A stretch of DNA of 64,000 nucleotides from NCBI GenBank assembly GCA_963971285.1, contig OZ020248.1, positions 19,861,873 to 19,925,872 on the forward strand. Reading direction: 5' to 3'. The first letter of the stretch is position 1. Each line of letters starts with the position of its first letter. Positions 7,101 through 63,035 of this stretch are shown here, one piece after another. A program made the translations under genes and the position numbers. The notes under the pieces were generated by a model that worked only from the letters and a program-made list of their open reading frames with translations, was not told the DNA's origin and did not search any database. The DNA comes from Astropecten irregularis. Lineage: Eukaryota > Echinodermata > Asteroidea > Paxillosida > Astropectinidae.

Positions 7101-7637
7101 GAACCGGCGACCTCCTGAATACCGTACAGGCGCTCTACCAACTGAGCTATCCAGCCCTACGTTGGTGGTGTCCCTAATAGTCAATTTGTCAATTTTATTT
7201 GACTATTTGGGACACAACCAACGTAGGGCTGGATAGCTCAGTTGGTAGAGCGCCTGTACAGTATTCAGGAGGTCGTCGGTTCGAATCTCGCTCCAGTAAA
7301 ATTTTCTTTGTTCACTTTTAAATTTTTTTTAAACGTACCTCAGAAATTGAAACTTGAGGTCGGACTCCTCACTAAATATCCCTGCAAAAAGGGAAGAAAT
7401 TTCTTCCCTTATTTGCTTGTATGTCCATTGGTGGCAAATTGCAATTTTGCCAACAAGGCCAGCTGCTGCCAGCTGGCCCTTGGCAGCGCCCCGTGGAATT
7501 TGGTCAGATTCATATGGTATACATACGATCTCCTTATTTGTGGATCTACTATTGCCATTTTTCCTAGTCCTAGCAAGGACACCCCTTCGTGGTGGTCTTG
7601 ACTGCTGGACAGCTGAGGGCAAACGGAATCTTCTTTC
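889..7637 (-). CDS. HECT-domain E3 ubiquitin ligase-like protein, ten exons, 5' end not found
   Basis: Ten exons on the minus strand join with matching phases: 7339-7637, 6614-6758, 6191-6265, 5800-5897, 5147-5263, 4226-4479, 3307-3521, 2575-2755, 1610-1819, 889-1160. They total 1866 nt, 621 residues plus stop. Residues 1-150 are a family-specific N-terminal region (GRAVLSLAGQGCIYIRSDRT). Next come acidic and basic stretches with a likely nuclear localisation signal (PLKRRRVGTHK) and an Asp/Glu-rich segment. The HECT domain follows. Its N-lobe opens with GVDIGGLTREF and continues with FIRLERKQFRFLGQLTATTI. The C-lobe ends with VLPKINTCGFVITLPL, where the Cys near residue 586 sits about 35 residues from the C-terminus, as expected for the ubiquitin-thioester cysteine. 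All introns are GT-AG; the donor of exon 6614-6758 (GTTGGT) is weak but is the one that keeps frame. No start Met is identified, so further 5' exons should lie above 7637. It resembles G2E3-like families expanded in invertebrates. Catalytic activity is inferred. Confidence 0.85.
3738..4008. mobile_element. Intronic MITE-like element with AGGGCTCGAA termini
   Basis: It begins CAGGGCTCGAAAT and ends ATTCGAGCCCT, an inverted repeat of about 12 bp. Inside are repeated GGTCTAGT / ACTAGACC motifs in both orientations. The element is 271 bp, lies in the intron between exons 3307-3521 and 4226-4479 of the HECT-like gene, and has no ORF. Confidence 0.6.
7085..7156 (-). tRNA. tRNA-like sequence, probably tRNA-derived repeat and not a working tRNA
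   Basis: The 72-nt sequence has a perfect 7-bp acceptor stem (GGCTGGA with TCCAGTC), a D arm with TAGCTCAGTTGGTAGAGC (A box) and a T arm with GGTTCGAATCCC (B box). The anticodon arm CCTGT-ACGGTAT-TCAGG has a T-T mismatch at its base and lacks U at position 33. The T stem has one C-C mismatch. The internal pol III promoter boxes look good, but the decoding arm does not. It may be transcribed without serving translation. Confidence 0.5.
7227..7298 (+). tRNA. Second tRNA-like sequence, inverted mate of the 7085-7156 copy
   Basis: Same family and length as the mate, in the opposite orientation, with A box and B box retained. It is more decayed: the terminal pair 1-72 is G-A, and the T stem and anticodon loop carry transitions (ACAGTAT loop). 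It is best read as a tRNA-derived repeat. Confidence 0.45.
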
Positions 7638-17100: not shown

Positions 17101-17376
17101 AATTGACACCTGATTGTGGAGGCCTTGATGCATAAAGAGTCTGCACCACTGGTGATGTCATGCAATAGGGTAATGGTCTAGTTAGTGTAAGTTGAAACAC
17201 TTGAAAGAAGGCAACAATGAGTCAGGTGGTTCCTGATGATACCCCCACCTCTGAGTGGTTAATACAAAGAACCAGCAATGGATATTGTTGGTCTTTGGGG
17301 GACCTTTATACCACAAGTGTTTTTAGTTTTTAAGGAATAAATAAACCTTCACATCATTTACTGAAAAGAAAATTGT

Positions 17377-22329: not shown

Positions 22330-23003
22330 TCCAGTTCCGATTCTTGCGATATACATGAACAGACCTCCAGCATTAGCGCAAGCCAAGACGGTTATCTGGG
22401 TCTTGTCTGAGGAGCCTTGGAGGTACACATCCTTTGCTCACTTCGGAGCCAGCACTCGCTCGAACTTTCCTCCAGCTAGAGGAAAGCCGCTTCCATCGGC
22501 ATTAAAAACCCACATGGGGTTTTCGAAGATTTCCAGACCTTCAATGACTTCTTCCTGGAAATATTTGTCAAGGCCATCAAACCAATCGTACGCGGATCCT
22601 TTCCAGGGTGACTGACGCCCTTTCTCGGCTGAGATTCTCCGGCATGCAGAGCACAAGCTCAGGGTGCCGGCGAAGGAAACCTTTTATCCAATCCCTCCCT
22701 GGTGTATTATCTTTAAAGGGATTGGTTCTCCCGTCATCGTCGATGATTTTCTTCACTATTGACACAAGCTCCAGTTTCGTACGGCCATAACCAATTTTGG
22801 CTATACTTCTTCTTTGTCGGTCAGATAGGGCTTTGGACCTTGGCGTGAATGCAATAGGGAGCGGTCATTCACCTTGTCGTTCAGTGTCGTCTTTGGGACA
22901 CCATAGGTGCGGCTGGCCCCCGAGATAGAAATCTCCCCAGCTCTTATACGGTTGACCGCTGTTTCCAGGGCTTGGGCGTCATAATTCTTTAACTTCCGTG
23001 GCA
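22330..23003 (-). pseudogene. pogo/Tigger-type transposase relic
   Basis: Three minus-strand blocks in family order. At 22801-23003 is MPRKLKNYDAQALETAVNRI with the helix-turn-helix GASRTYGVPKTTLNDKV, the Psq/CENP-B N-terminal type. At 22577-22765 is a CENP-B/Tc5-type HTH piece (DWIKGFLRRHPELVL). At 22330-22610 is the start of the DDE domain, with WVFNADGSGFPLAG and DKTQITVLACANAGG. Frameshifts separate the blocks and the rest of the DDE domain is missing. It belongs to the Tc1/mariner superfamily and is inactive. Confidence 0.65.
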
Positions 23004-23789
23004 TTGCGTTACTTGGAATGATACGGAATCTGGAAAATGAAACATAATTTTGATCAGCTTCAACTTTAACTAGACTTTTTTTCCATTGGCTCCAGACGGA
23101 AGAAATCTTACACAGAAACATTATAGCCAGTTCTCTCGGGCTTCACCACCGAGGTGTTTTATTTTTTGTTTCAAACATTCTCCTGAAACATGATATAATA
23201 AAACAACAGGTGTACCTGTAGCTCAATTGCTCAGAAATGTAACACTGATTTAAGGAATTAACAAACTGGTACACAGAGGATAATTATTCATTTAAATGTT
23301 CAAAGAGAGTACTTCAAGAGGGACTAACAACTTACTAAAACATGAATAAGAAAAGTCCCAACTTCGGTGTAACCTGATAAAATGTCAACAACAAACAACT
23401 CTTGATTTAGCCATTAGATTTTGTTTGTCCCGAATTTCGTGGTCGCAAGAAAATGCGGACCCCCATCCGGCAGAATTGTGTCTGCACGGGCCAAGCTTCC
23501 AGATTGGGCCCCGCCCCCTTCCCGCCTATGCAAGACATGCAGAGGCATGGCCCGAGAAGAGATCTCAAGGCCGTAAGTGAGGCAGATCTTTTTGTTTACC
23601 TAGCCAATCTTTCTTGCTTTTTTCCACAACCAAACCCAATTATATATAAACCCATCCTTGAGTTTGATCTACCAATATGGTCAATAAATGCGTCATTCAA
23701 CAAGGCCAAAATCATTGCCTAACCTCACCCCAAATCGATTCCCTGGGATAAAACAAAGTCCAAGGTCCAACATGCAACTGCAAACACAA

Positions 23790-26331: not shown

Positions 26332-26490
26332 TCACAGGTTTTTAGCCAAGAAAACCAACATGTCGACTTTTTCTGGTTTAAGCAAAGAACGCTTGGCAGT
26401 GACGACGTTCCCAGCTAAACTGAACAGTCGCTCCGAGGGAGAGCTTGTGCCGCAAATACACAAATATTTACAGGCAAGCTTGGAAAGACT
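26332..26490 (-). pseudogene. hAT transposase C-terminal dimerisation exon (ZBED1/Ac-like)
   Basis: The minus-strand frame reads LSKLACKYLCICGTSSPSER then LFSLAGNVVTAKRSLLKPEK and ends at VFLAKNL and TGA (26332-26334). The pattern S-x-x-S-E-R-x-F-S-x-A-G is the hallmark of the hAT family dimerisation region. A plausible acceptor (CCCCAG) sits at its 5' side near 26489. No catalytic exon was found immediately upstream; a pogo/Tigger fragment begins there instead. Confidence 0.6.
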
Positions 26491-26577
26491 GGGGTAAGCC
26501 ATTTATTTTTTATTTTTTATTTCCACTTTGTTTTTCATGACATATTTTATTTCTTTCGTTTGTGGGTAAGTTGTGGT

Positions 26578-26593
26578 GGCTCTGAAAAGAACC
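26578..26593 (-). promoter_or_regulatory. Histone mRNA-type 3' stem-loop, variant copy
   Basis: The minus strand reads GGTTCTTTTCAGAGCC, a 6-bp stem with one G-T wobble and a TTTC loop. It is followed by ACCACAACTTACCCACAA and then ACGAAAGAAA, which resembles the purine-rich histone downstream element (CAAGAAAGA in sea urchins) at the expected distance. Confidence 0.55.
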
Positions 26594-26757
26594 AGTTTCT
26601 TTAGGGAGGGGAGTTTTTGGACTTTATTTTATTTTTATGTTTTATTTCCACCTTTTCTTTTTTTTGGGGGGGAGATTTGTGGTCTTTATTAAATTTTTCT
26701 GTTTTATTTCCACCTTTTTTTGCATGACATATTTTATCTCTTTTGGGAAGACATGGT

Positions 26758-26773
26758 GGCTCTGAAAAGAGCC
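26758..26773 (-). promoter_or_regulatory. Histone mRNA-type 3' stem-loop
   Basis: The minus strand reads CAAAC-GGCTCTTTTCAGAGCC-ACCA, matching the animal histone stem-loop core and its usual flanks. A purine-rich AAAAGAGA follows 13 nt after the stem. It lies at the 3' end of the pogo/Tigger fragment, where the present reading frame runs through it (encoding KRLFSEPP), probably because the original stop was lost or bypassed by a frameshift. Confidence 0.65.
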
Positions 26774-26793
26774 GTTTGTTGAAAGGCATCTCA

Positions 26794-27209
26794 ATATGCT
26801 GAGCCAATCTAGCCCAGATATTGTGCGGTGGTGCGTTGTCGGACTCAGGAACAGTCTGGACGGCTGCGGCCGGGTCTTCAGTTCCTTCTTCCTCTTCAGC
26901 TTCATGACGTTTGAAGCCAGCTTTGGCAAAGCATTTGGCAATGCTTTCAGGTTTAACACCCTTCCAAGCTGTGTCCACCATATTAATGGCCTGCTTCATG
27001 TTGATGGGCTGGGGAGTTACGTCCGAGTTGTAACTGGCTAGAAGGGTTGTCAGTAGCGCCCGGCGGTAGTGCACCTTCATGTTCATAATCACACCTTGAT
27101 CTAACGGCTGTAGTTGTGATGTCGTGTTGGGCGGCAGGAACTGGAGGGTGATGGCATTCAATTGAGGGACTTGTGGATGGTTTGTCATCTGAATTTCTGT
27201 CCTTGACAA
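26794..27209 (-). pseudogene. pogo/Tigger transposase, C-terminal DDE fragment
   Basis: The frame contains QFLPPNTTSQLQPLDQGVI, the conserved block around the third catalytic Asp of DDE_1 transposases. It is followed by the helical tail (KQAINMVDTAWKGVKPESIA, KCFAKAGF) and an acidic stretch. The N-terminal half, including the first Asp and the HTH domains, is missing. The open frame runs on to 26601 through the stem-loop duplicates, giving a low-complexity lysine tail unlikely to be native. Confidence 0.6.
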
Positions 27210-31615: not shown

Positions 31616-32074
31616 TTACATCGCTGGAACAAGTGACTCGACAGTAACATTCCATGGATCGTTGTGCAGCATCGTTATGTATAACAATTCAAAGCAAGGC
31701 TTTGTTCTAGGAAAAAAGACAAATTTAAACTTCGCGAGCCGGCAGCTATACGAATACACGCGTGTCGACGCGTGTGGTAAAACTTTTAAACCCAATGTTA
31801 CCCACTGTCCTTTGCGCGCACACGCGCAACACGGAAAACAGGCTATCTTCGATAAGGTCCATCGAAGCAGGCTTTCATGACGGCCACGATTAAGGTTGGA
31901 GGTGATTTTCTGCTCACCGTAGCCAATATCTTTAAGGGATTGTCTCTCCCTTGGTGTAGGTGCCTTAAATGTATCCACATCAGTCAGGATGGCAATCCTA
32001 CTTGTCCACGGTGTGGTCTTTGTCTTCTTTTTAGGGGGAACTGGGCCTACCCTGAGTTTAAGGACAGCACTGAG
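31616..32074 (-). CDS. ORF downstream of BEN-like copy 1, interrupted by TGA in this copy
   Basis: Beyond the TAG at 32168 the same frame continues with DEDKEYTVRTE, then TGA (32075-32077) in this copy only, then KLRVGPVPPKKKTKTTPWTS and DVDTFKAPTPRERQSLKDIG. Past the repeat boundary at 31831 it reads unique sequence to a stop at 31616. In copies 2-4 the TGA is CAA. Confidence 0.35.
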   Translation of the reverse strand, partial: LSAVLKLRVGPVPPKKKTKTTPWTSRIAILTDVDTFKAPTPRERQSLKDIGYGEQKITSNLNRGRHESLLRWTLSKIACFPCCACARKGQWVTLGLKVLPHASTRVYSYSCRLAKFKFVFFPRTKPCFELLYITMLHNDPWNVTVESLVPAM

Positions 32075-32167
32075 TCATTCTGTTCTTACTGTGTATTCTT
32101 TGTCTTCATCATCGAGTAGTGAACTGATGTTGCTGAAGTCAAATTGAAGAACAGTGGAAGGATACCA

Positions 32168-32758
32168 CTAGAAGCTCAAGTTTTTGAATACTGAATACTG
32201 CTGAATAATGTTGTTCAGCTGTCTGGATATACATTTATCCAGAACCTTTGCATGAGTCCTCATCTTCTCTCTGGCCTTATTTTTACTCCTATTTGAATTG
32301 CTCTTGCCAAGAACATGACCCCCAACTAACTCCTTTGCAAAGGAAATAATGTACAAGATGCACACATCCACTTGCTTACCTTTAATGGCTTTGATAATGT
32401 GAACAGGAAGACCTGGCCGATCCATGCTACAGCTATTAGCAAGTTGCTCTTCCAAAATGAAGGCCTGAAGTAAATTTCTTACCAGCTTAGCTGGAGCTCT
32501 TTTTGCTGAAGTGATGCAGGAGTCGTAGATTACTTTCTTGATAGCTACCCCTCCTACATCAACCATCTCTTGCTTGCTTGGCTGGGCCAGTGGCTGGATC
32601 TGGTGATGGAGATGAGGCTGGAGCTGGAGCTGGTGATGGAAGCAAGGGAGGCTATCAGAGGGGTTAGAGTATTTATTCCAACACTCTCTGACAAAAACTT
32701 GATGAATTGCCTTTGCTGAAACATGGTCATCAAATTCAGCACATCTGCAAGATTTCAA
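32168..32758 (-). CDS. BEN-domain-like ORF, tandem copy 1
   Basis: A 196-codon frame. The C-terminal two thirds contain VDVGGVAIKKVIYDSCITSA, RNLLQAFILEEQLANS and LPVHIIKAIKGKQVDVCILY. This fits the BEN domain pattern (Leu-rich RLLxxLFxxEELAxSS block followed by a LDPxxIxAI-type block), a DNA-binding fold of chromatin proteins. The first 60 residues (HHQLQLQPHLHHQIQPLAQ) look like a proline-rich linker read in a shifted frame, see copy 4. The frame ends at TAG 32168-32170, which also forms an acceptor-like TTCTAG. Function is inferred only. Confidence 0.45.
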   Translation of the reverse strand: MKSCRCAEFDDHVSAKAIHQVFVRECWNKYSNPSDSLPCFHHQLQLQPHLHHQIQPLAQPSKQEMVDVGGVAIKKVIYDSCITSAKRAPAKLVRNLLQAFILEEQLANSCSMDRPGLPVHIIKAIKGKQVDVCILYIISFAKELVGGHVLGKSNSNRSKNKAREKMRTHAKVLDKCISRQLNNIIQQYSVFKNLSF

Positions 32759-32778
32759 TTGCTAATACATTGACATGC

Positions 32779-32912
32779 CTGAATCCTATCAACCTCAACC
32801 GCTCTAACACCCAAGTTCCTGGCCAACTTCTTCCAATCATTCCCAAGGTTTGAGGCGATTCTCCCTAGTGTGGTCTCACTCAGAGCAGCAGCAGCAGCAG
32901 TTTCTGTTTGAT
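32779..32912 (-). CDS. Death-domain-like exon, tandem copy 1
   Basis: The frame reads LSETTLGRIASNLGNDWKKL then ARNLGVRAVEVDRIQ. The LGxDWKxLARxLGV...VDxIQ pattern is the first half of a Death domain (helices 1-4). The second half may be in the BEN-like frame (HVSAKAIHQVFVRECWNKYS) or in the alternative frame 32554-32742 (RQFIKFLSESVG); the 34-nt gap between is too short for an ordinary intron. The same exon recurs at 34771 and 36763 but is absent from copy 4. Confidence 0.5.
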
Positions 32913-34159
32913 TTTGGAGAACGATCAAGCATCACATTAATTCAAAGAAAACTAACAATCGATTTAATATTACATTTGTACAGTCGCATTCGACTGATGT
33001 ACTAATAGAGCCAGTGATGATCCTGATGATTCTAGTAAATCTCTTCTCCGATCAAACCGTGATTATACAGGGTGTCCCAGAAAAAAACCAACAATAACCG
33101 AGATTTGACAATGTTTAATCCTATTTTGATTTAACTTTTGAATAATAAATGACATATCTGGAAAGCTTATTTCCTCATCTTTCATTTGATACCATTTATA
33201 TGATTCATACTTCACGCATGAGTGAGTAAATAAAATATGAAGGAAGGCTATCAAAAAGCCGTTTTATTTTAAATAATCAATCACATTTCTAGAAACTACA
33301 TATCCTGGCCTTTCAAATGATGCCTAAGTCAGGAAAATATGCGAGGGGTGACAGAGATATCTGCCTTTAAATGTGGATTGAATTTTCATGTTTTTGAAAT
33401 CCTTCGTTTTTCACGACAGACCGATTTTTCAGTATGAACGAATTGGACGAATTAGAACAGTATGCATACAAGATTTTTGTTTTTGTTAATGTTTCCTTGA
33501 CTGATGTTACCTTTCTGATTCTAACCATTTTGCATTGTAGAATCCATCTCAAAATCACTTTAGTCATCACGATATCGTCCAAGAGGTCTGGCGCTACGAT
33601 CGATCATAACTCGAGTTACGAAGGACAACCCATCGTATCTTACGTAAAGCCGCAATGCATCATAAGACAGTCCTGCGATTGATATACTTTATTTGCTGTT
33701 ACTATCAGGTTTGACAATCTCATAGTGCAAAGTGTGTACATAAGTGTGTGTATTATACCTTGGCGAGAGTCAGACTGTTTCGATTCAGTAGGTTCGTTGC
33801 TTGGTGCAGGAACATCGTGTCCACGGAAAACAGGCTATCTTCGATAAGGTCCATCGAAGCAGGCTTTCATGACGGCCACGATTAAGGTTGGAGGTGATTT
33901 TCTGCTCACCGTAGCCAATATCTTTAAGGGATTGTCTCTCCCTTGGTGTAGGTGCCTTAAATGTATCCACATCAGTCAGGATGGCAATCCTACTCGTCCA
34001 CGGTGTGGTCTTTGTCTTCTTTTTAGGGGGAACTGGGCCTACCCTGAGTTTAAGGACAGCACTGAGTTGTTCTGTTCTTACTGTGTATTCTTTGTCTTCA
34101 TCATCGAGTAGTGAACTGTTGTTGCTGAAGTCAAATTGAAGAACAGTGGAAGGATACCA

Positions 34160-34750
34160 CTAGAAGCTCAAGTTTTTGAATACTGAATACTGCTGAATAA
34201 TGTTGTTCAGCTGTCTGGATATACATTTATCCAGAACCTTTGCATGAGTCCTCATCTTCTCTCTGGCCTTATTTTTACTCCTATTTGAATTGCTCTTGCC
34301 AAGAACATGACCCCCAACTAACTCCTTTGCAAAGGAAATAATGTACAAGATGCACACATCCACTTGCTTACCTTTAATGGCTTTGATAATGTGAACAGGA
34401 AGACCTGGCCGATCCATGCTACAGCTATTAGCAAGTTGCTCTTCCAAAATGAAGGCCTGAAGTAAATTTCTTACCAGCTTAGCTGGAGCTCTTTTTGCTG
34501 AAGTGATGCAGGAGTCGTAGATTACTTTCTTGATAGCTACCCCTCCTACATCAACCATCTCTTGCTTGCTTGGCTGGGCCAGTGGCTGGATCTGGTGATG
34601 GAGATGAGGCTGGAGCCGGAGCTGGTGATGGAAGCAAGGGAGGCTATCAGAGGGGTTAGAGTATTTATTCCAACACTCTCTGACAAAAACTTGATGAATT
34701 GCCTTTGCTGAAACATGGTCATCAAATTCAGCACATCTGCAAGATTTCAA
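34160..34750 (-). CDS. BEN-domain-like ORF, tandem copy 2
   Basis: Identical in length and nearly identical in sequence to copy 1 (Q to R change in the linker). The downstream same-frame ORF (33785-34159) is open here, with CAA where copy 1 has TGA, and ends CSCTKQRTY. The Death-like exon lies at 34771-34904. Confidence 0.45.
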   Translation of the reverse strand: MKSCRCAEFDDHVSAKAIHQVFVRECWNKYSNPSDSLPCFHHQLRLQPHLHHQIQPLAQPSKQEMVDVGGVAIKKVIYDSCITSAKRAPAKLVRNLLQAFILEEQLANSCSMDRPGLPVHIIKAIKGKQVDVCILYIISFAKELVGGHVLGKSNSNRSKNKAREKMRTHAKVLDKCISRQLNNIIQQYSVFKNLSF

Positions 34751-36151
34751 TTGCTAATACATTGACATGCCTGAATCCTATCAACCTCAACCGCTCTAAC
34801 ACCCAAGTTCCTGGCCAACTTCTTCCAATCATTCCCAAGGTTTGAGGCGATTCTCCCTAGTGTGGTCTCACTCAGAGCAGCAGCAGCAGCAGTTTCTGTT
34901 TGATTTTGGAGAACGATCAAGCATCACATTAATTCAAAGAAAACTAACAATCGATTTAATATTACATTTGTACAGTCGCATTCGACTGATGTACTAATAG
35001 AGCCAGTGATGATCCTGATGATTCTAGTAAATCTCTTCTCCGATCAAACCGTGATTATACAGGGTGTCCCAGAAAAAACCCAACAATAACCGAGATTTGA
35101 CAATGTTTAATCCTATTTTGATTTAACTTTTGAATAATAAATGACATATCTGGAAAGCTTATTTCCTCATCTTTCATTTGATACCATTTATATGATTCAT
35201 ACTTCACGCATGAGTGAGTAAATAAAATATGAAGGAAGGCTATCAAAAAGCCGTTTTATTTTAAATAATCAATCACATTTCTAGAAACTACATATCCTGG
35301 CCTTTCAAATGATGCCTAAGTCAGGAAAATATGCGAGGGGTGACAGAGATATCTGCCTTTAAATGTGGATTGAATTTTCATGTTTTTGAAATCCTTCGTT
35401 TTTCACGACTGACCGATTTTTCAGTATGAACGAATTGGACGAATTAGAACAGTATGCATACAAGATTTTTGTTTTTGTTAATGTTTCCTTGACTGATGTT
35501 ACCTTTCTGATTCTAACCATTTTGCATTGTAGAATCCATCTCAAAATCACTTTAGTCATCACGATATCGTCCAAGAGGTCTGGCGCTACGATTGATCATA
35601 ACTCGAGTTACGAAGGACAACCCATCGTATCTTACGTAAAGCCGCAATGCATCATAAGACAGTCCTGCGATTGATATACTTTATTTGCTGTTACTATCAG
35701 GTTTGACAATCTCATAGTGCAAAGTGTGTACATAAGTGTGTGTATTATACCTTGGCGAGAGTCAGACTGTTTCGATTCAGTAGGTTCGTTGCTTGGTGCA
35801 GGAACATCGTGTCCACGGAAAACAGGCTATCTTTGATAAGGTCCATCGAAGCAGGCTTTCATGACGGCCACGATTAAGGTTGGAGGTGATTTTCTGCTCA
35901 CCGTAGCCAATATCTTTAAGGGATTGTCTCTCCCTTGGTGTAGGTGCCTTAAATGTATCCACATCAGTCAGGATGGCAATCCTACTTGTCCACGGTGTGG
36001 TCTTTGTCTTCTTTTTAGGGGGAACTGGGCCTACCCTGAGTTTAAGGACAGCACTGAGTTGTTCTGTTCTTACTGTGTATTCTTTGTCTTCATCATCGAG
36101 TAGTGAACTGTTGTTGCTGAAGTCAAATTGAAGAACAGTGGAAGGATACCA

Positions 36152-36742
36152 CTAGAAGCTCAAGTTTTTGAATACTGAATACTGCTGAATAATGTTGTTC
36201 AGCTGTCTGGATATACATTTATCCAGAACCTTTGCATGAGTCCTCATCTTCTCTCTGGCCTTATTTTTACTCCTATTTGAATTGCTCTTGCCAAGAACAT
36301 GACCCCCAACTAACTCCTTTGCAAAGGAAATAATGTACAAGATGCACACATCCACTTGCTTACCTTTAATGGCTTTGATAATGTGAACAGGAAGACCTGG
36401 CCGATCCATGCTACAGCTATTAGCAAGTTGCTCTTCCAAAATGAAGGCCTGAAGTAAATTTCTTACCAGCTTAGCTGGAGCTCTTTTTGCTGAAGTGATG
36501 CAGGAGTCGTAGATTACTTTCTTGATAGCTACCCCTCCTACATCAACCATCTCTTGCTTGCTTGGCTGGGCCAGTGGCTGGATCTGGTGATGGAGATGAG
36601 GCTGGAGCCGGAGCTGGTGATGGAAGCAAGGGAGGCTATCAGAGGGGTTAGAGTATTTATTCCAACACTCTCTAACAAAAACTTGATGAATTGCCTTTGC
36701 TGAAACATGGTCATCAAATTCAGCACATCTGCAAGATTTCAA
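36152..36742 (-). CDS. BEN-domain-like ORF, tandem copy 3
   Basis: Same 196-codon frame as copies 1 and 2. The downstream ORF (35777-36151) is open. One silent difference in the BEN-like frame changes the overlapping frame (FLSESVG to FLLESVG). The Death-like exon is at 36763-36896. Confidence 0.45.
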   Translation of the reverse strand: MKSCRCAEFDDHVSAKAIHQVFVRECWNKYSNPSDSLPCFHHQLRLQPHLHHQIQPLAQPSKQEMVDVGGVAIKKVIYDSCITSAKRAPAKLVRNLLQAFILEEQLANSCSMDRPGLPVHIIKAIKGKQVDVCILYIISFAKELVGGHVLGKSNSNRSKNKAREKMRTHAKVLDKCISRQLNNIIQQYSVFKNLSF

Positions 36743-38143
36743 TTGCTAATACATTGACATGCCTGAATCCTATCAACCTCAACCGCTCTAACACCCAAGT
36801 TCCTGGCCAACTTCTTCCAATCATTCCCAAGGTTTGAGGCGATTCTCCCTAGTGTGGTCTCACTCAGAGCAGCAGCAGCAGCAGTTTCTGTTTGATTTTG
36901 GAGAACGATCAAGCATCACATTAATTCAAAGAAAACTAACAATCGATTTAATATTACATTTGTACAGTCGCATTCGACTGATGTACTAATAGAGCCAGTG
37001 ATGATCCTGATGATTCTAGTAAATCTCTTCTCCGATCAAACCGTGATTATACAGGGTGTCCCAGAAAAAACCCAACAATAACCGAGATTTGACAATGTTT
37101 AATCCTATTTTGATTTAACTTTTGAATAATAAATGACATATCTGGAAAGCTTATTTCCTCATCTTTCATTTGATACCATTTATATGATTCATACTTCACG
37201 CATGAGTGAGTAAATAAAATATGAAGGAAGGCTATCAAAAAGCCGTTTTATTTTAAATAATCAATCACATTTCTAGAAACTACATATCCTGGCCTTTCAA
37301 ATGATGCCTAAGTCAGGAAAATATGCGAGGGGTGACAGAGATATCTGCCTTTAAATGTGGATTGAATTTTCATGTTTTTGAAATCCTTCGTTTTTCACGA
37401 CTGACCGATTTTTCAGTATGAACGAATTGGACGAATTAGAACAGTATGCATACAAGATTTTTGTTTTTGTTAATGTTTCCTTGACTGATGTTACCTTTCT
37501 GATTCTAACCATTTTGCATTGTAGAATCCATCTCAAAATCACTTTAGTCATCACGATATCGTCCAAGAGGTCTGGCGCTACGATCGATCATAACTCGAGT
37601 TACGAAGGACAACCCATCGTATCTTACGTAAAGCCGCAATGCATCATAAGACAGTCCTGCGATTGATATACTTTATTTGCTGTTACTATCAGGTTTGACA
37701 ATCTCATAGTGCAAAGTGTGTACATAAGTGTGTGTATTATACCTTGGCGAGAGTCAGACTGTTTCGATTCAGTAGGTTCGTTGCTTGGTGCAGGAACATC
37801 GTGTCCACGGAAAACAGGCTATCTTTGATAAGGTCCATCGAAGCAGGCTTTCATGACGGCCACGATTAAGGTTGGAGGTGATTTTCTGCTCACCGTAGCC
37901 AATATCTTTAAGGGATTGTCTCTCCCTTGGTGTAGGTGCCTTAAATGTATCCACATCAGTCAGGATGGCAATCCTACTCGTCCACGGTGTGGTCTTTGTC
38001 TTCTTTTTAGGGGGAACTGGGCCTACCCTGAGTTTAAGGACAGCACTGAGTTGTTCTGTTCTTACTGTGTATTCTTTGTCTTCATCATCGAGTAGTGAAC
38101 TGTTGTTGCTGAAGTCAAATTGAAGAACAGTGGAAGGATACCA

Positions 38144-38620
38144 CTAGAAGCTCAAGTTTTTGAATACTGAATACTGCTGAATAATGTTGTTCAGCTGTCT
38201 GGATATACATTTATCCAGAACCTTTGCATGAGTCCTCATCTTCTCTCTGGCCTTATTTTTACTCCTATTTGAATTGCTCTTGCCAAGAACATGACCCCCA
38301 ACTAACTCCTTTGCAAAGGAAATAATGTACAAGATGCACACATCCACTTGCTTACCTTTAATGGCTTTGATAATGTGAACAGGAAGACCTGGCCGATCCA
38401 TGCTACAGCTATTAGCAAGTTGCTCTTCCAAAATGAAGGCCTGAAGTAAATTTCTTACCGGCTTAGCTGGAGCTCTTTTTGCTGAAGTGATGCAGGAGTC
38501 GTAGATTACTTTCTTGATAGCTACCCCTCCTACATCAACCATCTCTTGCTTGCTGGCTGGGCCAGTGGCTGGATCTGGTGATGGAGATGAGGCTGGAGCC
38601 GGAGCTGGTGATGGAAGCAA
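38144..38620 (-). CDS. BEN-domain-like ORF, copy 4, with proline-rich linker in frame
   Basis: The BEN-like part is identical except for one residue (KPVRNLL), but one T is missing relative to copies 1-3. The BEN-like part is thereby joined in frame to LPSPAPAPASSPSPDPATGP, a typical disordered linker. Upstream there is no Death-like exon but a coiled-coil exon (38738-38902), the usual partner of BEN domains. This copy probably represents the parental gene structure. Confidence 0.5.
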   Translation of the reverse strand: MLPSPAPAPASSPSPDPATGPASKQEMVDVGGVAIKKVIYDSCITSAKRAPAKPVRNLLQAFILEEQLANSCSMDRPGLPVHIIKAIKGKQVDVCILYIISFAKELVGGHVLGKSNSNRSKNKAREKMRTHAKVLDKCISRQLNNIIQQYSVFKNLSF

Positions 38621-38704
38621 GGGAGGCTATCAGAGGGGTTAGAGTATTTATTCCAACACTCTCTGACAAAAACTTGATGAATTGCCTTTGCTGAAACATG
38701 GTCA

Positions 38705-38902
38705 TCAATTGCTAATACATTGACATGCCTGAAGCTGTTTTCTGAGCTGACTGATTATGTTGTCTTTCTCCTGTAGTTGACTTTTCAACTTTGTGATCTC
38801 TTCATCCAGGATGATCTCTTCATCACTGTTATGATGTACTAATGGTACTAGGGTAGCACATGGCACTGGTGACATCTCATCATCCACAACTTGTTCTCTC
38901 AT
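38705..38902 (-). CDS. Coiled-coil exon upstream of BEN-like copy 4
   Basis: The frame encodes EQVVDDEMSPVPCATLVPLV followed by an acidic heptad segment ITKLKSQLQEKDNIISQLRK, strongly coiled-coil in pattern, and then enters the repeat boundary (QACQCISN and stop). The 20-nt deletion at 38707 removes the acceptor present in copies 1-3. Coiled coil followed by BEN is a common animal arrangement. Confidence 0.45.
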   Translation of the reverse strand: MREQVVDDEMSPVPCATLVPLVHHNSDEEIILDEEITKLKSQLQEKDNIISQLRKQLQACQCISN

Positions 38903-40718: not shown

Positions 40719-40753
40719 ACAACATATTTGCAATTTGCATACAACATTATACA

Positions 40754-40845
40754 GTCAAACCTGTCTATAAAGACCGCTCAAGGGAAACGGAAAAAGTGGT
40801 CTTTATAGACAGGTGGTCTTTATAGACAGGTTGGCAATTTTCGAG
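40754..40845 (-). repeat. pogo/Tigger terminal inverted repeat with internal duplication
   Basis: CAGTCAAACCTGTCTATAAA (after TA) is the typical Tigger-type end. Within 90 bp the complementary word GGTCTTTATAGACAGGT occurs twice. It lies 3' of the transposase ORF at 41308-42306 and probably marks that element's 3' terminus. The opposite terminus was not found. Confidence 0.65.
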
Positions 40846-41253
40846 CACCCCACGTTGTACATGTAGATTAAGTCCAATAAACCTGCCCTAATACTAGCGA
40901 CCACTGTGTTAAACATGCCCTAAAAGCGACCACTGTGTTTTGTCCCCAGTGAAATGATTTTGTTGTACATATTTTGCTAAGTTGTGTACATGTATAAATG
41001 TTTTCATTGTACTGTACATGTATGGTTGTTTTTCCTTTAGTAATCATTTTAATTAAGACTGTAGCACATGTACTCTTAAAAAGGACAATGGCTAAAATGT
41101 ATTGGGGTGGAGTTGTTTATGTTTATGTTTATGTTTTTTTAACCTGGGATCTTTGTTTTGGGATTGTCCGTGTCTGTGAGAATCAGCTACGCTGCATCAG
41201 CGCATTACCAGCACAACGACGGGGACGTTTCTCACACAGTGCCATAAAATGTT

Positions 41254-41269
41254 GGCTCTGAAAAGAGCC
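41254..41269 (-). promoter_or_regulatory. Canonical histone mRNA 3' stem-loop behind a transposase stop codon
   Basis: The minus strand reads AAAC-GGCTCTTTTCAGAGCC-AACA. It is a perfect 6-bp stem with TTTC loop and the conserved AAAC 5' flank. It begins 38 nt after the TGA stop (41308-41310) of the pogo/Tigger ORF, the spacing seen in replication-dependent histone genes. A purine-rich GTGAGAAACG lies about 20 nt further, a possible histone downstream element. Confidence 0.75.
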
Positions 41270-41307
41270 GTTTGGTTCAGGGGTTTGTTTCAATCTGTGA
41301 ACAGGGT

Positions 41308-42306
41308 TCACCGGTCTAGGTCTTCAAGCCTTTTTGAAGAAGTCCAGAAGTGATGATTGGCTGGCAGCTTGACGGTGATGCAGGGTTTCTCTGTGATCTT
41401 CTCTTCCATGGCCATGCAGGTATCCACCAAATCAGCACAACCCTTTGTGACTGCAAACTTGCGCATTTCTGCAAGCATTTCTGCAAACTGTTCAAAGTTC
41501 TTTCCAGTGCTTGCTGCAGGCTCTTCTCCGCCATCGTCATCCTCCCCGTCGCTCCCATCATCTTCAAGGCTTTCATGGACCCGTTGCTGTAGATCAGCCA
41601 TGGACACAACCGGGTTGTTGTCAGAGGTGGCCAGTCCTTCATCGAGAGCACTGAGTTCTGTCAATGTGGTGTTGAGTGCATTCTGACAAGCAGCATCCAA
41701 GGCCTCATCTTCTGCTGTTTCTTCCTCTTCTTCATCTTGAGCTGCAACCATGACTGCTGGAACTCCACACTTATGGAAGCACTTCTGGAAGGTCTTGGTG
41801 TCCACGTCTGTCCAAAACTGGTCGACCCAGTAGATAGCCTGCAGGACATCCGTTGTCTTCAACAACTCAGGACCGGTCATGTCCTTGTTGGCTTCCATCT
41901 TCTGCAGCATGCTTCTCAGTTGCCTCTTTCTGAACTTTAGTTTCAGTGCCTGGATGATGCCTTGATCCATCGGCTGTGCCACAGATGTTGTGTTTGGAGG
42001 AAGAAAAAGCATCTTGATGTTCTTCAGCTGTAGATGCGGATGACATGTGGCGTTGTCCAGAAACATTTTCCTCTTCTGGCGGCCTATTTTCTTGTCAAGC
42101 TTCTTCATGTACACTTCAAACACGTTGCTTGTCATCCAGGCTTTCTTGTTTGCGTGGTACTCAACAGGAAAATCCTGTCGCTCTAGTCTGCCAAAGCAGC
42201 GGGGTTTGATGGCCTTGCCAATGACCAGCGGATTTCCTTCTCTCCGAGGGCGTTGGCACACAGCATCACAATGACTCGTTCCTTGGAGCGCTTGCCACCG
42301 GAACAA
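41308..42306 (-). CDS. pogo/Tigger-type DDE transposase, long C-terminal ORF
   Basis: This 332-codon frame is the longest in the window. It contains GNPLVIGKAIKPRCFGRL, then FLDNATCHPH (second catalytic Asp in the DN motif) and LFLPPNTTSVAQPMDQGII (third Asp). The helical YWVDQFW...CFHKCG region and a long acidic C-terminus (DDGSDGEDDDGGEE) follow. The DNA-binding HTH domains and first catalytic Asp are missing or lie upstream. In another frame at 42240-42310 the family sequence GGKRSKERVIVMLCANALGE precedes it, so a single frameshift separates the two parts. It may be a recently inactivated copy. A Tigger-type terminal repeat lies 3' at 40754 and a histone-type stem-loop directly after the stop. 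Confidence 0.75.
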   Translation of the reverse strand: MFRWQALQGTSHCDAVCQRPRREGNPLVIGKAIKPRCFGRLERQDFPVEYHANKKAWMTSNVFEVYMKKLDKKIGRQKRKMFLDNATCHPHLQLKNIKMLFLPPNTTSVAQPMDQGIIQALKLKFRKRQLRSMLQKMEANKDMTGPELLKTTDVLQAIYWVDQFWTDVDTKTFQKCFHKCGVPAVMVAAQDEEEEETAEDEALDAACQNALNTTLTELSALDEGLATSDNNPVVSMADLQQRVHESLEDDGSDGEDDDGGEEPAASTGKNFEQFAEMLAEMRKFAVTKGCADLVDTCMAMEEKITEKPCITVKLPANHHFWTSSKRLEDLDR

Positions 42307-42589
42307 TCCTCTCCTTTTATATGAAGTGTATTATGAAAACTAGATCATGCTCATTTAAACATGTTAAACTTAGAAAGCTCTAGGTTAAGGCCTAGGCTTA
42401 CCATCTTGTCAGTTCACTCATCTGGAATTGGAAATCCACAAAGTCAATTACTGTGAAGCATGCAGAACAGTAACCGCCATTGCAAAGGCGGCACCTACAG
42501 TCAAAAGCCTGAGCTTTTGCCCAATGGATCTCTTGAAGCTGAACGCCATCATGGCCATCATTCATACCATCATCATGAGCAATTTGTCA

Positions 42590-49098: not shown

Positions 49099-49210
49099 GG
49101 TGTATCTAGGTTTTTGTATGTCTGTTTAATTTGTACACACTAGTAAAAAAACTATACGTTTTTCACAGACACAAGAAACTTATTGTACATAAATAGTAAT
49201 ATTTACATAT

Positions 49211-50730
49211 TCTGTGACACACTGAAGCGCCCCGTAGGTGAGATACAGTCGGTCCTCAATTTGAGGTGTCTTTGTTGTCTCCTCCTGGATACGCTGTCAG
49301 TATGAGGTCAAGGGATCTAGCCACGGTGGGCGGCGCTGGGCGGGCCAGCCCGGCACTGGAAATTTGCGCCCGGAACTAAGGTCTCAAATAAACTCTGCCG
49401 TCCAGCACGAATTTCCGCAGAGTGAATAAAAGTATTGCCAATATCGTGAATTTTGATCACATTCCTGTATAAAAGTTAATTCTTTTCTGTTATACACCTG
49501 TATTTCTTTGAATATCAGTCCTTAAAATGTAGCTTTATACCATTAGATGGCGTTGCCGTCGGAACGGTGAAAATGTTGGCCCTGGACCTTGATCATGTTG
49601 CACTGCATTTTTGTCACTGCGGCTAAACTTCATTTCTAGAGCCCACCACTAAAATTGGTCTGGCTAGAACCCTGATGAGGTCATGATGACTTCCTTCTTG
49701 TTCTGTATGTGCTGACCCTCAGATATTAACAGTGGCATATTCTGTGACACACAGAAGCGCCCCGTATGTGAGATACAGTCGGTCCTCAATTTGAGGTGTC
49801 TTTGTTGTCTCCTCCTGGATACGCTGTCGGTATAAGGTCATGATGACTTCCTCCTCGTTCTGTATGTGCTGACCCACATATATTAACAGCGTCATATTCT
49901 GTGACACACAGAAGCGCCCCGTAGGTTAGATACAGTCGATCCTCAACTTGAGGTGTCTTTGTTGTCACCGCCTGGATACGCTGTCGGTATGAGGTCATGA
50001 TGACTTCCTTCTTGTTCTGTATGTGCTGACCCACAGATATTAACAGCGGCATATTCTGTGACACACAGAAGCGCCCCGTAGGTGAGATACAGTCGGTCCT
50101 CCATTTGAGGTGTCTTTGTTGTCGCCTCCTGGATACGCTGTCGGTATGAGGTCATGATGACTTCCTTCTTGTTCTGTATGTGCTGACCCACAGATATTAA
50201 CAGCGGCATATTCTGTGACACACAGAAGCGCCCCGTATGTGAGATACAGTCGATCCTGAACTTGAGGTGTCTTTGTTGTCGCCTCCTGGATACGCTGTCT
50301 GTATGAGGTCATGATGACTTCCTTCTTGTTCTGTATGTGCTGACCCACAGATATTAACAGCGGCATATTCTGTGACACACAGAAGCGCCCCGTATGTGAG
50401 ATACAGTCGATCCTTAACTTGAGGTGTCTTTGTTGTCACCTCCTGGATACGCTGTCGGTATGAGGTCATGATGACTTCCTTCTTGTTCTGTATGTGCTGA
50501 CCCACAGATATTAACAGTGGCCTATTCTGTGACACACAGAAGCGCCCCGTAGGTGAGATACAGTCGGTCCTCAACTTGAGGTGTCTTTGTTGTCACCTCC
50601 TGGATACACTGTCGGTATGAGGTCATGATGACTTCCTTCTCGTTCTGTATGTGCTGACCCACAGATATTAACAGCGGCATATTCTGTGACACTCAGAAGC
50701 GCCCCGTAGGTGAGATACAGTCGGCAGTGC
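49211..50730. repeat. 157-bp tandem array, about eight copies, with one interrupted unit
   Basis: Units starting TCTGTGACACACAGAAGCGC occur at 49211, 49741, 49898, 50055, 50212, 50369, 50526 and 50683. All spacings are 157 bp except the first, which is 530 because of the insertion at 49311-49674. Since 157 is not a multiple of three, the minus-strand ORFs (with VIMTSYRQRIQEATTKTPQ) shift frame each unit. An amplified exon fragment is possible. Confidence 0.85.
49311..49674. mobile_element. hAT-like MITE inserted in a 157-bp repeat unit
   Basis: The left end AGGGATCTAGCCACGGTGGG and the right end GGCTAGAACCCTG with upstream CCCACCAC form imperfect inverted repeats. ATGAGGTCA is duplicated on both sides (49302-49310 and 49675-49683), an 8-9 bp target duplication as for hAT elements. 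The first repeat interval is 373 bp longer than 157, equal to the 364-bp element plus the 9-bp duplication. Confidence 0.8.
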
Positions 50731-53149: not shown

Positions 53150-53320
53150 TCATCTCCTGACACAGGTTCCATTTTGCTCTGGATGTCCTTTTATCAAGTT
53201 TTCAGGGCTTTGTTAAATGTAATAATTAATTGTATATTGGTGAATTTGTATGTTTTTATGTGTGCAAATCAAAAATGGAATTTCATGTTGCGGTGTGATG
53301 AATGAATAAATCTAATCTAA

Positions 53321-54378
53321 TCTTGGAGAAGTAACCAGCAAACTGATGTCTTGGTTTGTAGATTTAAGCTGGAAATCATAAGATATACTCTATTCTATTG
53401 TGATGTCTCACTGAACTGCATCTTGGATAAGTAACCAGCAAATTGATGTCTTGGTTTGCAGATTTAAGCTGGAAATCATGAGAGATACTCTATTCTATTG
53501 TGATGTCTCACTGAACTGCATCTTGGATAAGATGCCATCAAACTGATGTCTTGGTTTGCAGATTTAAGCTGGAAATCATGAGAGATACTATATTCTATTG
53601 TGATGTCTCACTGAACTGCATCTTGGATAAGATGCCAGCAAACTGATGTCTTGGTTTGTAGATTTAAGCTGGAAATCATGAGAGATACTCAATTCTATTG
53701 TGATATCTCACTGAACTGCATCTTGGATAAGATGCCAGCAAACTGATGTCTTGGTTTGTAGATTTAAGCTGGAAATCATGAGAGATACTCTATTCTATTG
53801 TGATGTCTCACTGAACTGCATCTTGGATAAGATGCCAGTAAACTGATGTCTTGGTTTGCAGATTTAAGCTGGAAATCATGAGAGATACTATATTCTATTG
53901 TGATGTCTCACTGAACTGCATCTTGGATAGGATGCCAGCAAACTGATGTCTTGGTTTGTAGATTTAAGCTGGAAATCATGAGAGATACTATATTCTATTG
54001 TGATGTCTCACTGAACTGCATCTTGGATAGGATGCCAGCAAACTGATGTCTTGGTTTGTAGATTTAAGCTGGAAATCATGAGAGATACTATATTCTATTG
54101 TGATGTCTCACTGAACTGCATCTTGGATAGGATGCCAGCAAACTGATGTCTTGGTTTGCAGATTTAAGCTGGAAATCATGAGAGATACTATATTCTATTG
54201 TGATGTCTCACTGAACTGCATCTTGGATAGGATGCCAGCAAACTGATGTCTTGGTTTGCAGATTTAAGCTGGAAATCATGAGAGATACTATATTCTATTG
54301 TGATGTCTCACTGAACTGCATCTTGGATAGGATGCCAGCAAACTGATGTCTTGGTTTGTAGATTTAAGCTGGAAATCA
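53321..54378. repeat. 100-bp satellite, about 10.5 copies
   Basis: Units such as TCTTGGATAAGATGCCAGCA...AACTGATGTCTTGGTTTG...AGATTTAAGCTGGAAATCAT repeat every 100 bp from 53321 to 54378. Identity between units is above 95 percent except for the first two. Alternating AAGATGCC / AGGATGCC and GTAG / GCAG variants give subfamilies. Confidence 0.95.
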
Positions 54379-54571
54379 TCACCTTCATACATAGTTGCTG
54401 AACCTGTAACATGGAATTACCGGGTGTTAGCTTGTGCTGAGTAGAAAGTAGAAACACACTGATTGGTGCTGACATATTCATCACAGTGTTGATTGGATTC
54501 TTTAGTTGATCTACTTTTACTTTTCACCCACCTTCCAGAATTCGTAGGAACTCTTCTTCAATAGGAATTTC

Positions 54572-58539: not shown

Positions 58540-59263
58540 GCAGTGTAGGCATACTCTGTTTTATACCATGATAATATAAATATTTTCTTATCAATGTTTA
58601 CAAAACACTGCTTATTATCTACATGTATCTGAACTCCATGCTCTACTTACCGATTCACAAGAACTTTTCTGAAAAAAAACATCAAAAGGACGAGTTCACT
58701 GGCGAGAATTGGCGATCGTGATCCCAGTAACCGTGTATTAACGTACGTGATGTGGGATGCAAGCCATGTGTCACACCAAAGTATGATATTACCTTTAAAC
58801 AGGTCTCAGTTCCCATTCTAGGGAAAAATTTCTCTTTTCTTCAAGAAATGTGAGTATACCTTGTCCTTATTGGAATCTGGGATTCTCCGCATGCAACAGT
58901 TTTGGAGGTGAAATCACGATTTTTAGGGTCCAAGTTACTCGGACAACCGACAACCTTATTACAATACTAGCCCCATACCATGCATATGTTGAGCACAATC
59001 TTTCGTCCTGCGCAATCTTTAACTGTTTGTACGAAGTGACTTGTTGTTAAAGAAAATCTTTGACAGTTTGAATTTTGAGGCTGTCATAACCCAGGCCTAA
59101 CTGCAGTGAATGTAGCTCTTCTTGGTTTCTCTATACCAACGTTTTAAATACCGGTACGTCCATCGGTCTGGGCATTACTCGCCAGTGCGTCCAAATATTC
59201 CCTCTACTATACAGTATTGCTTTCTTCTGTTTTGTAACCACACTTTTTGCAGTACATCACCTT
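58540..59263. other. Gene-free stretch
   Basis: No supported coding feature between the 37-bp repeats and the second copy of the long repeat. Confidence 0.3.
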
Positions 59264-62200
59264 GGATGTAGCTAAGCCTCATAGCTCTTCTGTCTTTGCC
59301 AATGGTTTTGGCTGACCATCACACTCATGATGTTTTTTATTGATGATCAAGCACAGCTTGTGCACATAATTCTTCATTTTCCTCCTTTCCTGCAATCCCA
59401 ACCCAAACCACCATTTTGTAATCTGTAGAATGCAAGCTCAGTATTTTGACAGTACTATGTTTAGTGTGCAGGAAAGGTGTGATTCTGCTGATGTTCATAC
59501 ATACATGTAATATGTACTCAATTTGCATACATGTCTTTCTGAATGTTTCTATTATTATTATGTAGTCATTATACAGGAATTGACATCATTTGTTCAGACA
59601 CTGGGTAAATGATTGCAATGTCACTACTCAATGCCACAATGAAATACCAGGTAAGTATCTTCACATCAATGTGACAAGTGTTCACCAGTGTTATGGTTTA
59701 CATCCTCAGATCTTACACTTCTGCTTTCAACCATATTTAGACATTACAATGTAGGAACGATGCTGTTTTACAGGATTTTATTTAGACTTAAGACCTTAGA
59801 CTTTTAGGCTTTAGGCTAATTTAAAATACATGCACACTACATATGTAGTAGATTGTGGATTGATCCATGTGCTTTTAAATTAAGCCGTGCTTTCTTTAAT
59901 TTTCATTTTTAAAACAGAACATTTATTTAGAGACTACTAATATTTAAGAGATAGTTGGTGTTAGCACCTGAACCCTGGAATGACCCAACTTCAGGGTGTC
60001 ACTGGGGCTTCAAACCTCAGCTGACGGTTCAGGTTATGACCCATACTCAGTTTATATTCAGCTTAGAAATAGGCTATTGAGTAATGTTTGAAAATTTAAA
60101 ATTTGTGAATTTGTTAAACGTTTGTTATCATTGGTATATAGCAAACTTGTATTTTATCCTTGAATGCTTTATTACTTTAAACAAGTTGCAGCCCAAATAT
60201 GCAAATAAATGTTTTGTCAATATGTTCCACTGCCACTGCAAAATGCTCCACACTGCTGAAATACCTGAGAATCTTCTCCAGAGCTCTTGGAAAGATCAAC
60301 ATGCAGCTTGAATGTTAAGCAAGAGACACCTTGAACACAGTATCAGAACTGTCATTGCCTGAAGAATTGATGTATGAATCAACATGTGCAGTTATGACAA
60401 CTGACATCCAACATGAGTGGAACAAACATCCTCAGCCTGCACCCTCATCATCATCACTTTCACTCTCTCCAAGACAGCAGTGAATCTGTGCCAGGTACTG
60501 AGCTTATGATGTGTTTCTTCTCATCAGTCAGAGATCTGCCAAGATATCAGATTTCAACAATGTCACTGATTCTCTTCAAGACTGGTACAAGTGCCTAACT
60601 AACATCCTGATGAAGAAGGCACAACTGTGCTGCATGGATAAAGGTGCAGGAGTCCTGAAAATCCATTGAGATTATTAAGATGAATTGAACACACATCAGT
60701 GTTATCATTGAACTTCACTACATTGCAGAAGCTGTACAGACACACAGTACAGCCAACCAGTAGGAGAGTGATACTGCTACCATGCAGCATTCAATGATAA
60801 ATGACATGCAGTGAAACATCCTGATGAATGATACATGTGAAAAGCCATCAGTATGTACAGAACTACAGAGATAATCATGGTATCCTCAACAACAACTTGT
60901 GGACTTGAGCAGTGAGCATCAACAGTGGAGTGGAGCATATGGCAATTCATTCTGTCATCCATTTCCTTTTGAGTTATGTTGCTATGGGTCCACTTTGATC
61001 TGCACTTTCCTTCTTTTACAGTTAATAAAAACAAAGATAGTAAAATATTAAGCAAAATGCGATCTCATGCAACATTTAGGGAATTGCATAATAAATAAGT
61101 TAACCTAATAATATTATTTGTTTCACAAAGGTTAGATAGGTTTATGAATCCTGGTTAGATTTTATTCACATTGTATTAAGTCCTGTCACACATAATATGT
61201 AACATTCATTCATTTACTGAACTGCAGGAGGTGCTCACATTTTAGAGCAAACTGAAGAAATCTGTGAAACTCTGATGATAATTCTCATGTTGAAGTTACT
61301 TTCTATATTTCATTGATTTGTATTGAATTCTATGAGCATCCTAACAGCACATGAATGGCAAACTGTTATGAAATACAGTTGTTAGATGTTACAAATTAAG
61401 GACTAGCCATTACTTTTTTACACTTTAATGTAGTTGAAAGCAGAAATGTTGTTGTATTTTTCTCATTCCGTGTCATAAATGTATCTCTAAACATGTTAAA
61501 TGACCACAAATCTTGGTCAAATTTGTATGAAAAACATGGGGAAACTTAATGTTCTTAAAATGTAAAGTTGAAGTGACAATGCATGATTTTGCTCACAGCT
61601 GTCAAGAAACTGTGATTATTAAACACGTCTTCAATTGACAAGTTTGTGATAGCTTTTAAAATGGTATGATCTGCAAATACTCATGGTATTGTCAAATTCT
61701 GAGCTTTCATAACAACTTCACCCCTGGTCCCTGTAGATTTGTTCTCTTTTCTTTCTGTTTTTCTTTCAGAATTTCAAACAGAAGATTCCTGTTGATCTTG
61801 AAAGATTGCTAGAAATCCTCCCACAATGTCTTGGTCACAGAGTCAAAGATCCATGACATCACTCTGTAGTGAATGTTTTGGCAACTGATCTCTTTTCTGC
61901 CAATTGCCTCTCTCATGTCATTTGGGCTTTTTCCATTCTCCTATCAATTTCTTTCATTCTTAAGGCACTCTACATCCATGTCTCTCTGTAAATTGACACC
62001 TGATTGTGGAGGCCTTGGTGCATAAAGAGTCTGCACCACTGGTGATTTCATGCAATAGGGTAATGGTCTAGTTAGTGTAAGTTGAAACACTTGAAAGAAG
62101 GCAACAATGAGTCAGGTGGTTCCTGATGATACCCCCACCTCTGAGTGGTTAATACAAAGAACCAGCAACAGATATTGTTGGTCTTTGGGGGACCTTTATA

Positions 62201-63035
62201 CCACAAGTGTTTTCAGTTTTTAAGAAATAAAAAACCTTTACATCATGTACTGAAAAGAAAATGGCGTCTTTTTAAGGAAGACCAAATTCGTTGTGCTGTT
62301 TGTTGTGTTTTGTTTACTTTTCTTTGTTGTTGTTGTTGTTGTTTTGGCAGGTAGGGCATTAACATTGATCATGTATTTTTTCAAAATTCATTTCAAAAAG
62401 AGGATATTTGTTATCTGTTTCCAGAGAAACTCATGTATGAAGATTGCATCAAGCAGAACAGTGTAATCAATTGATCAGTGGGACATTGCCATTGACATTC
62501 TCCTAATTCATAAATAAATAAGTAAATTCAATAAATAGGTCCAAATCAATCTGTGGAGCTCATTAATATACATGTATTTTGTAAACCTCAAAATGTTTTT
62601 TTTTTTCCCTAAAATCATTTGCTGGGCGCTACATGGGAAGTCTTGTAAAGAAAAAATGGATGGAGCCTGGTCACCAGAGTTTGGACTTTCAGCTTTGAGC
62701 TGTTTGGATGAAATCAGGCCCTAAAGTCGCTCTATTTTTTCCATGTTGTGGAGGGGTACATTTTTGAGTCTGGCACCAGTCAATTTGGCAGTTTTAGGTA
62801 CATTTTTATTTGGATGGTCTTTTCTCAAAAAGTCATTGGTTACCCCATAAAAAAAAAAATTGACAAGAAAATGGAATTGGAAGTTATCAGCTTCATTTTA
62901 GCGTATGGCTTGATGGCCTGAGAAACCTTTGAGTATTTGTAATAATTGTTTGAAGTTGGCCATTTTTGCATGGGAGCCTATGGGAAATTATTTACTGGTC
63001 TGCGTCTATTGAGCAGAGTGTCTGCTGCCCTCTTT
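59264..63035. repeat. Long dispersed repeat, copy B (matches 14461-19875)
   Basis: Same orientation as copy A, starting GGATGTAGCTAAGCCTCATA. It lacks the 900-bp TIR element and the internal duplication of copy A, and has its own 330-bp extra segment at 61052-61385. A (TTG)n microsatellite lies near 62325. The similarity to copy A is lost near 63035 (TGTCTGCTGCCCTCT). No gene is recognised inside. Confidence 0.75.

Follow-up and report, generated by a model that had tools for sequence, protein, structure and literature searches.

In Astropecten irregularis, stem-loops of the kind that ends replication-dependent histone mRNAs lie directly behind the transposases of certain pogo/Tigger DNA transposons, where they probably serve as the signal that forms the 3' end of the transposase mRNA, whose processing would then resemble that of histone messages. 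By sequence, a conserved SLBP-type hairpin stands at a histone-like distance past the transposase stop codons and is accompanied in some types by a histone downstream element (HDE), which suggests that several kinds of Tigger borrow the histone machinery of the cell. From this arrangement we infer SLBP/U7 cleavage, absence of a poly(A) tail, a timing in S phase or the early embryo and a benefit to the element. The starting point was a stretch of 64,000 nucleotides (contig OZ020248.1, positions 19,861,873 to 19,925,872; hereafter the window), and the genome searched was its own, with 475.7 Mb in 168 contigs. The window holds two transposase fragments, elements 1 and 2, and the former has a copy elsewhere in the genome that is 95% identical (L104). 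Their features, in window positions, are the following:

41308 to 42330, minus strand: element 1, a 5'-truncated pogo/Tigger transposase fragment with DDE_1 over residues 33–185
41324 to 41326, minus strand: TGA closing the family's own frame (LLDFFKKA, then stop), 54 nt 5' of the stem, with the same end in L104
41308 to 41310, minus strand: TGA of the shifted frame, 38 nt 5' of the stem
41254 to 41269, minus strand: histone-type stem-loop of element 1, GGCTCTTTTCAGAGCC, kept in L104
41176 to 41235, minus strand: conserved downstream element GTGAGA..TCTCAC, a predicted three-way-junction RNA replacing the HDE
26601 to 27209, minus strand: element 2, a Tigger fragment with DDE_1 over residues 15–94
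26758 to 26773, minus strand: histone-type stem-loop of element 2, a 16-mer identical to that of element 1
26737 to 26744, minus strand: histone downstream element AAAAGAGA of element 2
26578 to 26593, minus strand: variant stem-loop GGTTCTTTTCAGAGCC, inside a 79% tandem duplicate (26501–26601 and 26688–26780)

The sequence-only reading had described a minus-strand hairpin with a GGCTCT/AGAGCC stem, a TTTC loop and an AAAC 5' flank, and this hairpin is indeed found at 41254–41269, with CAAAC directly before the stem. It had also placed the stem 38 nt after a TGA. A TGA does lie at that distance, but it ends a shifted frame, and the stop of the family is located 54 nt away. The purine-rich stretch proposed downstream proved weak in element 1, since no AAAGAG-type HDE is present there and only GAGAAA occurs, 20 nt past the stem. 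The pattern GGYYYTYHWYARRRCC has three sites in the window, compared with an average of 0.07 in shuffled windows, and none of 100 shuffles reaches three. The Rfam model Histone3 (RF00032, gathering score 34) matches element 1 at 41233–41274 with 27.9 bits, and it yields matches in 11 of 18 sources tested. Element 2 (36.3 bits), L118 (36.3) and L119 (39.3) exceed the gathering score, which the other eight hits do not reach; no match was obtained in L105, L107, L108, L122, L125, L126, and L129.

Both window copies are remnants, with DDE_1 detected at E-values of 1.9e-34 and 2.7e-18. Element 1 is a dead, 5'-truncated fossil whose reading frame is shifted near both ends and whose best tblastn match to the relative P0002 starts at P0002 residue 188. 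Element 2 is missing about 110 C-terminal residues relative to sea-star proteins, its nearest ones (Patiria, 60%; Acanthaster, 52%), and runs into its hairpin. The relatives, from sea urchins, sea stars, molluscs, and fish, are named Tigger-derived protein 4 or 6. An N-terminal CENP-B-type HTH (PF03221) is present in full-length relatives, e.g., P0002–P0006, and is not present in the truncated window copies. Element 1 and L104, which share DNA past the element and are separated by 0.36 Mb on a single contig, may derive from one local duplication. A Tigger-like terminal repeat at 40752–40775 was considered as the end of element 1 and rejected because the 95% copy lacks that stretch; the region 40733–40901, absent from L104, holds this repeat together with inner repeats (40752–40838). 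A minus-strand frame at 26334–26490, directly behind the second hairpin, resembles the C-terminus of a hAT transposase.

Elsewhere in the window, an N-terminal fragment at 22801–23142 carries an HTH of the Psq type (PF05225), which pogo-like transposases also have, and a further fragment of this kind lies at 22577–22864. A unit of 1992 bases is repeated head to tail at 31830–38708, with more than 99% identity and the same ORFs in each copy, and the segments 14458–17373 and 59262–62262, 45 kb apart and in the same orientation, are 90–97% identical. Moreover, an inverted repeat of 264 bases (7060–7323) has a tRNA match in each arm (7084–7156, minus; 7227–7299, plus), and tandem repeats spaced by 157 and 100 bases occupy 49193–50724 and 53320–54379.

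The persistence of the hairpin was followed through the family. A protein search of the genome with element 1 gave 46 matches, from which 20 Tigger-like 3' flanks were chosen solely by protein match; small fragments, and additional pieces of a copy already represented, were excluded. A consensus hairpin (stem form GGYYYT/ARRRCC, 6 bp with a 4-nt loop, near the stop), shared with elements 1 and 2, is found in 10 of the 20 flanks: L104, L114, L115, L116, L117, L118, L119, L120, L121, and L123. The distance from stop to hairpin is 54 nt in L104 and 26–34 nt in five more divergent Tigger types. Nine of the other ten flanks are truncated, interrupted, or decayed. Homology to element 1 breaks off 3 nt before the hairpin in L105, and ends earlier in L108 and L110 than in L105 and L107; in L107, the 3' portion of the hairpin survives along with the beginning of the downstream element, and no family end was recognised in the translations of L106, L109, L111, L112, and L113, although L109 has a two-mismatch hairpin at another place. 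In the tenth, L122, the DDE_1 frame (689 aa, 36% identity to element 1) closes with a stop, and the next 190 nt or so contain no hairpin. By identity alone this counter-example is indistinguishable from the hairpin-bearing copies, which, L104 aside, are 34–46% identical to the element 1 protein. Six further DDE_1 places (L124–L129) showed the hairpin in none; in the more distant L125, L126, and L129, about 370, 240, and 370 nt, respectively, past a likely stop are free of it, and in L124, L127, and L128 the transposase end was not recognised. Therefore, judging by these flanks, the hairpin characterises several Tigger types and does not accompany every DDE_1 protein. The expectation that other family members keep it is largely borne out, by the 95% copy and five divergent types, with L122, L125, L126, and L129 standing against it.

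Sequence variation within the stem is compensatory among types, with the forms GGCTCT/AGAGCC, GGCCTT/AAGGCC, GGTCTT/AAGACC, and GGCCCT/AGGGCC. In an alignment with one row per type, comprising five Tigger types, L019, and L016, all six stem pairs are held in 7/7 rows and three pairs show two-sided changes. Of 500 shuffles, none attains the observed covariation score or degree of pairing and 34 attain the observed count of pairs changed on both sides, and slid versions of the alignment reach at most 55% pairing. The search pattern has Y opposite R, which biases it toward pairing, though C-A mismatches are still admitted.

The position of the hairpin was examined at the genome scale with the pattern AAACGGYYYTWTTCARRRCCA, which has 103 places (AAACGG hairpins) and none in the reversed control. 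Among the 100 listed, 55 are inside a tandem histone array (C18:15.63–16.05 Mb, all on one strand) and 45 elsewhere. Fourteen of these 45 lie 129–515 nt downstream of one of 61 DDE_1 matches, on the same strand, compared with an expectation of 0.003, and no other placement of DDE_1 occurs within 1 kb of the 45. The distance is 490–515 nt in ten of the 14 and 129, 151, 174, and 378 nt in the remaining four. The family test had already yielded nine of the 14; two more are those of the window, and three are new (C11:20010486, L137; C14:14724021, L136; C28:8000182, L138). At least two of the remaining 31 listed hairpins stand behind histone genes (C10:20574078 and C10:26578627), and three behind the L027 family described below. 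A chance origin of the hairpins was rejected on the basis of the window shuffles, the reversed-pattern controls of 0, and the positional expectation of 0.003.

The host histone genes provide the reference for these ends. One H3 and one H4 gene read in the array have the same hairpin 26 and 23 nt past the stop, followed by TTCAAAAGAGA and TTTTCAAAAAAGAGA, respectively, the H4 gene (L140) being assigned from its last residues; a dispersed H3 gene has GGCTCTATTCAGAGCC and an H2B gene has GGCCCTATTCAGGGCC. The stop-to-stem distance is 23–27 nt in these four genes versus 26–54 nt in the Tigger types. That the host genes share the 16-mer and the CAAAC flank, and that over half of the listed AAACGG hairpins belong to the array, would suit the idea that the Tigger hairpins descend from decayed histone genes, or were expelled from the array, and came to lie beside transposons by accident. 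This is extremely improbable: the distance between DDE_1 and hairpin is nearly constant in ten of the 14 cases, the GGCCTT/AAGGCC and GGTCTT/AAGACC stems were seen behind Tigger, with neither of them present in the four histone genes read, and no histone ORF was detected by tblastn with H2A, H2B, H3, and H4 (E 1e-4) in L009–L028 or in the window, as the sequence-only reading had noted for the surroundings of the hairpin.

Downstream of the hairpin in the transposase genes, two forms can be distinguished. The HDE form, carrying AAAAGAGA, comprises element 2, L118, L119, L136, and L137. Its AAAGAG-type HDE lies 10–15 nt past the stem in all of them except L119, where the distance is 3 nt, and L136 and L137 have TTTTCAAAAAAGAGA in common with the host H4 gene. 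L120 has AAAGAAA 22 nt past the hairpin. No purine-rich HDE (AAAGAG) was found 10–15 nt past the stem in element 1, L104, L114, L115, L116, L121, and L123. The junction form has the start of GTGAGA..TCTCAC in common among element 1, L104, L114, L115, L116, L117, L121, L123, and L138, and the element is predicted to fold into a three-way junction. Its alignment has 8 rows, one of which is L089 (not Tigger); L115 was left out for its differing middle, and L138 was fetched later and is partial. In this alignment, 96.7% of cells are paired and four pairs show two-sided changes, with 0/500 shuffles matching the covariation score and 19/500 matching the count of two-sided pairs. Apart from chance-level matches, Rfam revealed no other family in the downstream region (E<=10 for element 1, E<=0.5 for the others). 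The absence of an HDE in the element 1, L114, and L116 types, where another conserved RNA structure is present, could indicate that the hairpin is selected for something other than SLBP, namely a role in DNA, a plain terminator, or an RNA stability hairpin. This is improbable, given that loop, stem length, and flanks hold to the histone consensus and that other Tigger types retain the histone HDE at the histone distance.

The genome contains 691 exact hairpins, with 0 in the reversed-pattern control. The 100 places listed are all on three contigs (64 in L009–L068 and 36 in L069–L103), and about 88 of them, sorted by eye, belong to a short dispersed palindromic repeat. Its layout is ..GTCGAGTTAACC, the hairpin, and ACCCCATACTCACAAAAGAG.., with an HDE of its own, and several copies have a mirrored second hairpin. 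In such repeats (e.g., L015, L018, L022, L023, and L053), the element AAAAGAG is found, and the two hairpins of mirrored copies face outward, 43–106 bases apart. A hammerhead-like core suspected in this repeat was dropped, as Rfam matched nothing of the kind in one copy (L022). The repeat is a warning that a hairpin beside a transposase can be an insertion. Its abundance among the hairpins listed, and the occurrence of hairpin and junction element behind another ORF (L089–L091) and in L017, where no transposase was found, speak for a short mobile hairpin-carrying repeat inserted behind the transposases. Nevertheless, such an origin is very improbable, because the flanks of the Tigger hairpins are unlike those of the dispersed repeat, on which ground an insertion of this repeat was rejected for element 1, and the hairpin keeps one place by the stop in types with 34–46% protein identity to element 1.

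Hairpins also accompany other elements. In L019, a single case, a Tc1-type DDE_3 ORF (E 5.3e-17) stops 85 nt before a hairpin with an HDE (40.8 bits). The ORF of L027, DDE-like only at E 0.012, belongs to an echinoderm family (Patiria, 65%; Asterias, 63%; sea urchins, about 50%) and stops 43 nt before a hairpin with an HDE. Nine copies of this family have a 3' flank that was read or can be placed; the hairpin is present in four (L027, its double on C27, by position, L016, and L135, the last with GGCCCTTTTCAGGGCC) and absent from the 3' flank of five (L130–L134). The ORFs of L089 and L102 end 56 and 22 nt before a hairpin, respectively, and the ORF of L089–L091 and L102 presumably resembles MULE-type transposases. 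Pfam found nothing in the ORFs of L089, L102, and L098 and gave no lead on pieces of L016 and L027; neither did searches for relatives in viral_contigs and genome_contigs, or for the hairpin in viral_contigs. A hairpin and junction element near-identical to those of element 1 are found at L017:4791–4872 and in L089–L091, with no Tigger transposase. Because L089–L091 share both parts with element 1, the cassette of hairpin and junction seems, on sequence grounds, to move between unrelated elements. The broader proposal, that histone-type 3' ends are a general DNA-transposon device in this lineage (six Tigger types, the Tc1-type L019, L027/L016/L135, and L089–L091/L102), with a cassette moving between unrelated elements and one form in which a three-way junction replaces the U7 site, is tentative and about evenly balanced. 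The element 1, L114, and L116 types without HDE, L122 without hairpin, the hairpin in only 4/9 of the L027 family, and the fact that most of the 691 exact hairpins belong to the dispersed repeat are counterpoints to reading these ends as histone-type.

If the hairpin serves as a histone-type 3' end, the transposase gene would be transcribed beyond its stop codon, SLBP would bind the hairpin of the message and, where AAAAGAGA exists, the U7 snRNP would pair with the HDE. The message would then be cut a few bases past the hairpin and lack a poly(A) tail, its synthesis and persistence being largely limited to S phase or to eggs and cleavage-stage embryos. In the three-way-junction types, either a variant cutting route might operate or the structure might recruit the same machinery. 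The gain for the element may be transposase at hand during replication, an idea at this stage. A search for U7 snRNA (RF00066) gave no match in this genome and none in the control genomes either. Transposase messages with a histone end would break the rule given in the abstract of a 2018 eLife article (PMC6303110), would offer natural substrates other than histone messages on which to test SLBP and U7, and would give cut-and-paste transposons a concrete route to act during replication. Should the device be general, mobile elements would be the first protein-coding class besides histones on the SLBP pathway, with transposase tied to DNA replication. Moreover, the HDE-less form, with its second conserved RNA structure, may reveal another way to such a 3' end.

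No report of a histone stem-loop in transposons was found among the titles and abstract openings listed from a library that lacks most subscription articles, and in the term passages of PMC7386202, PMC9219625, and PMC7325037 neither "stem-loop" nor "polyadenylation" was found. The elements resemble pogo/Tigger in their DDE_1 transposase and in the naming of their relatives, and differ from the pogo/Tigger passages of these three papers in the histone-type end, which those passages do not describe. Compared with the 3' end of replication-dependent histone mRNAs, the Tigger hairpins stand behind a transposase, one form has a three-way junction replacing the HDE, and two of the stem types are not among the four histone genes read. 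However, they share with it the 6-bp stem, the 4-nt loop, the CAAAC 5' flank, and a location 26–54 nt from the stop and, in some types, the HDE AAAAGAGA about 13 nt further on.
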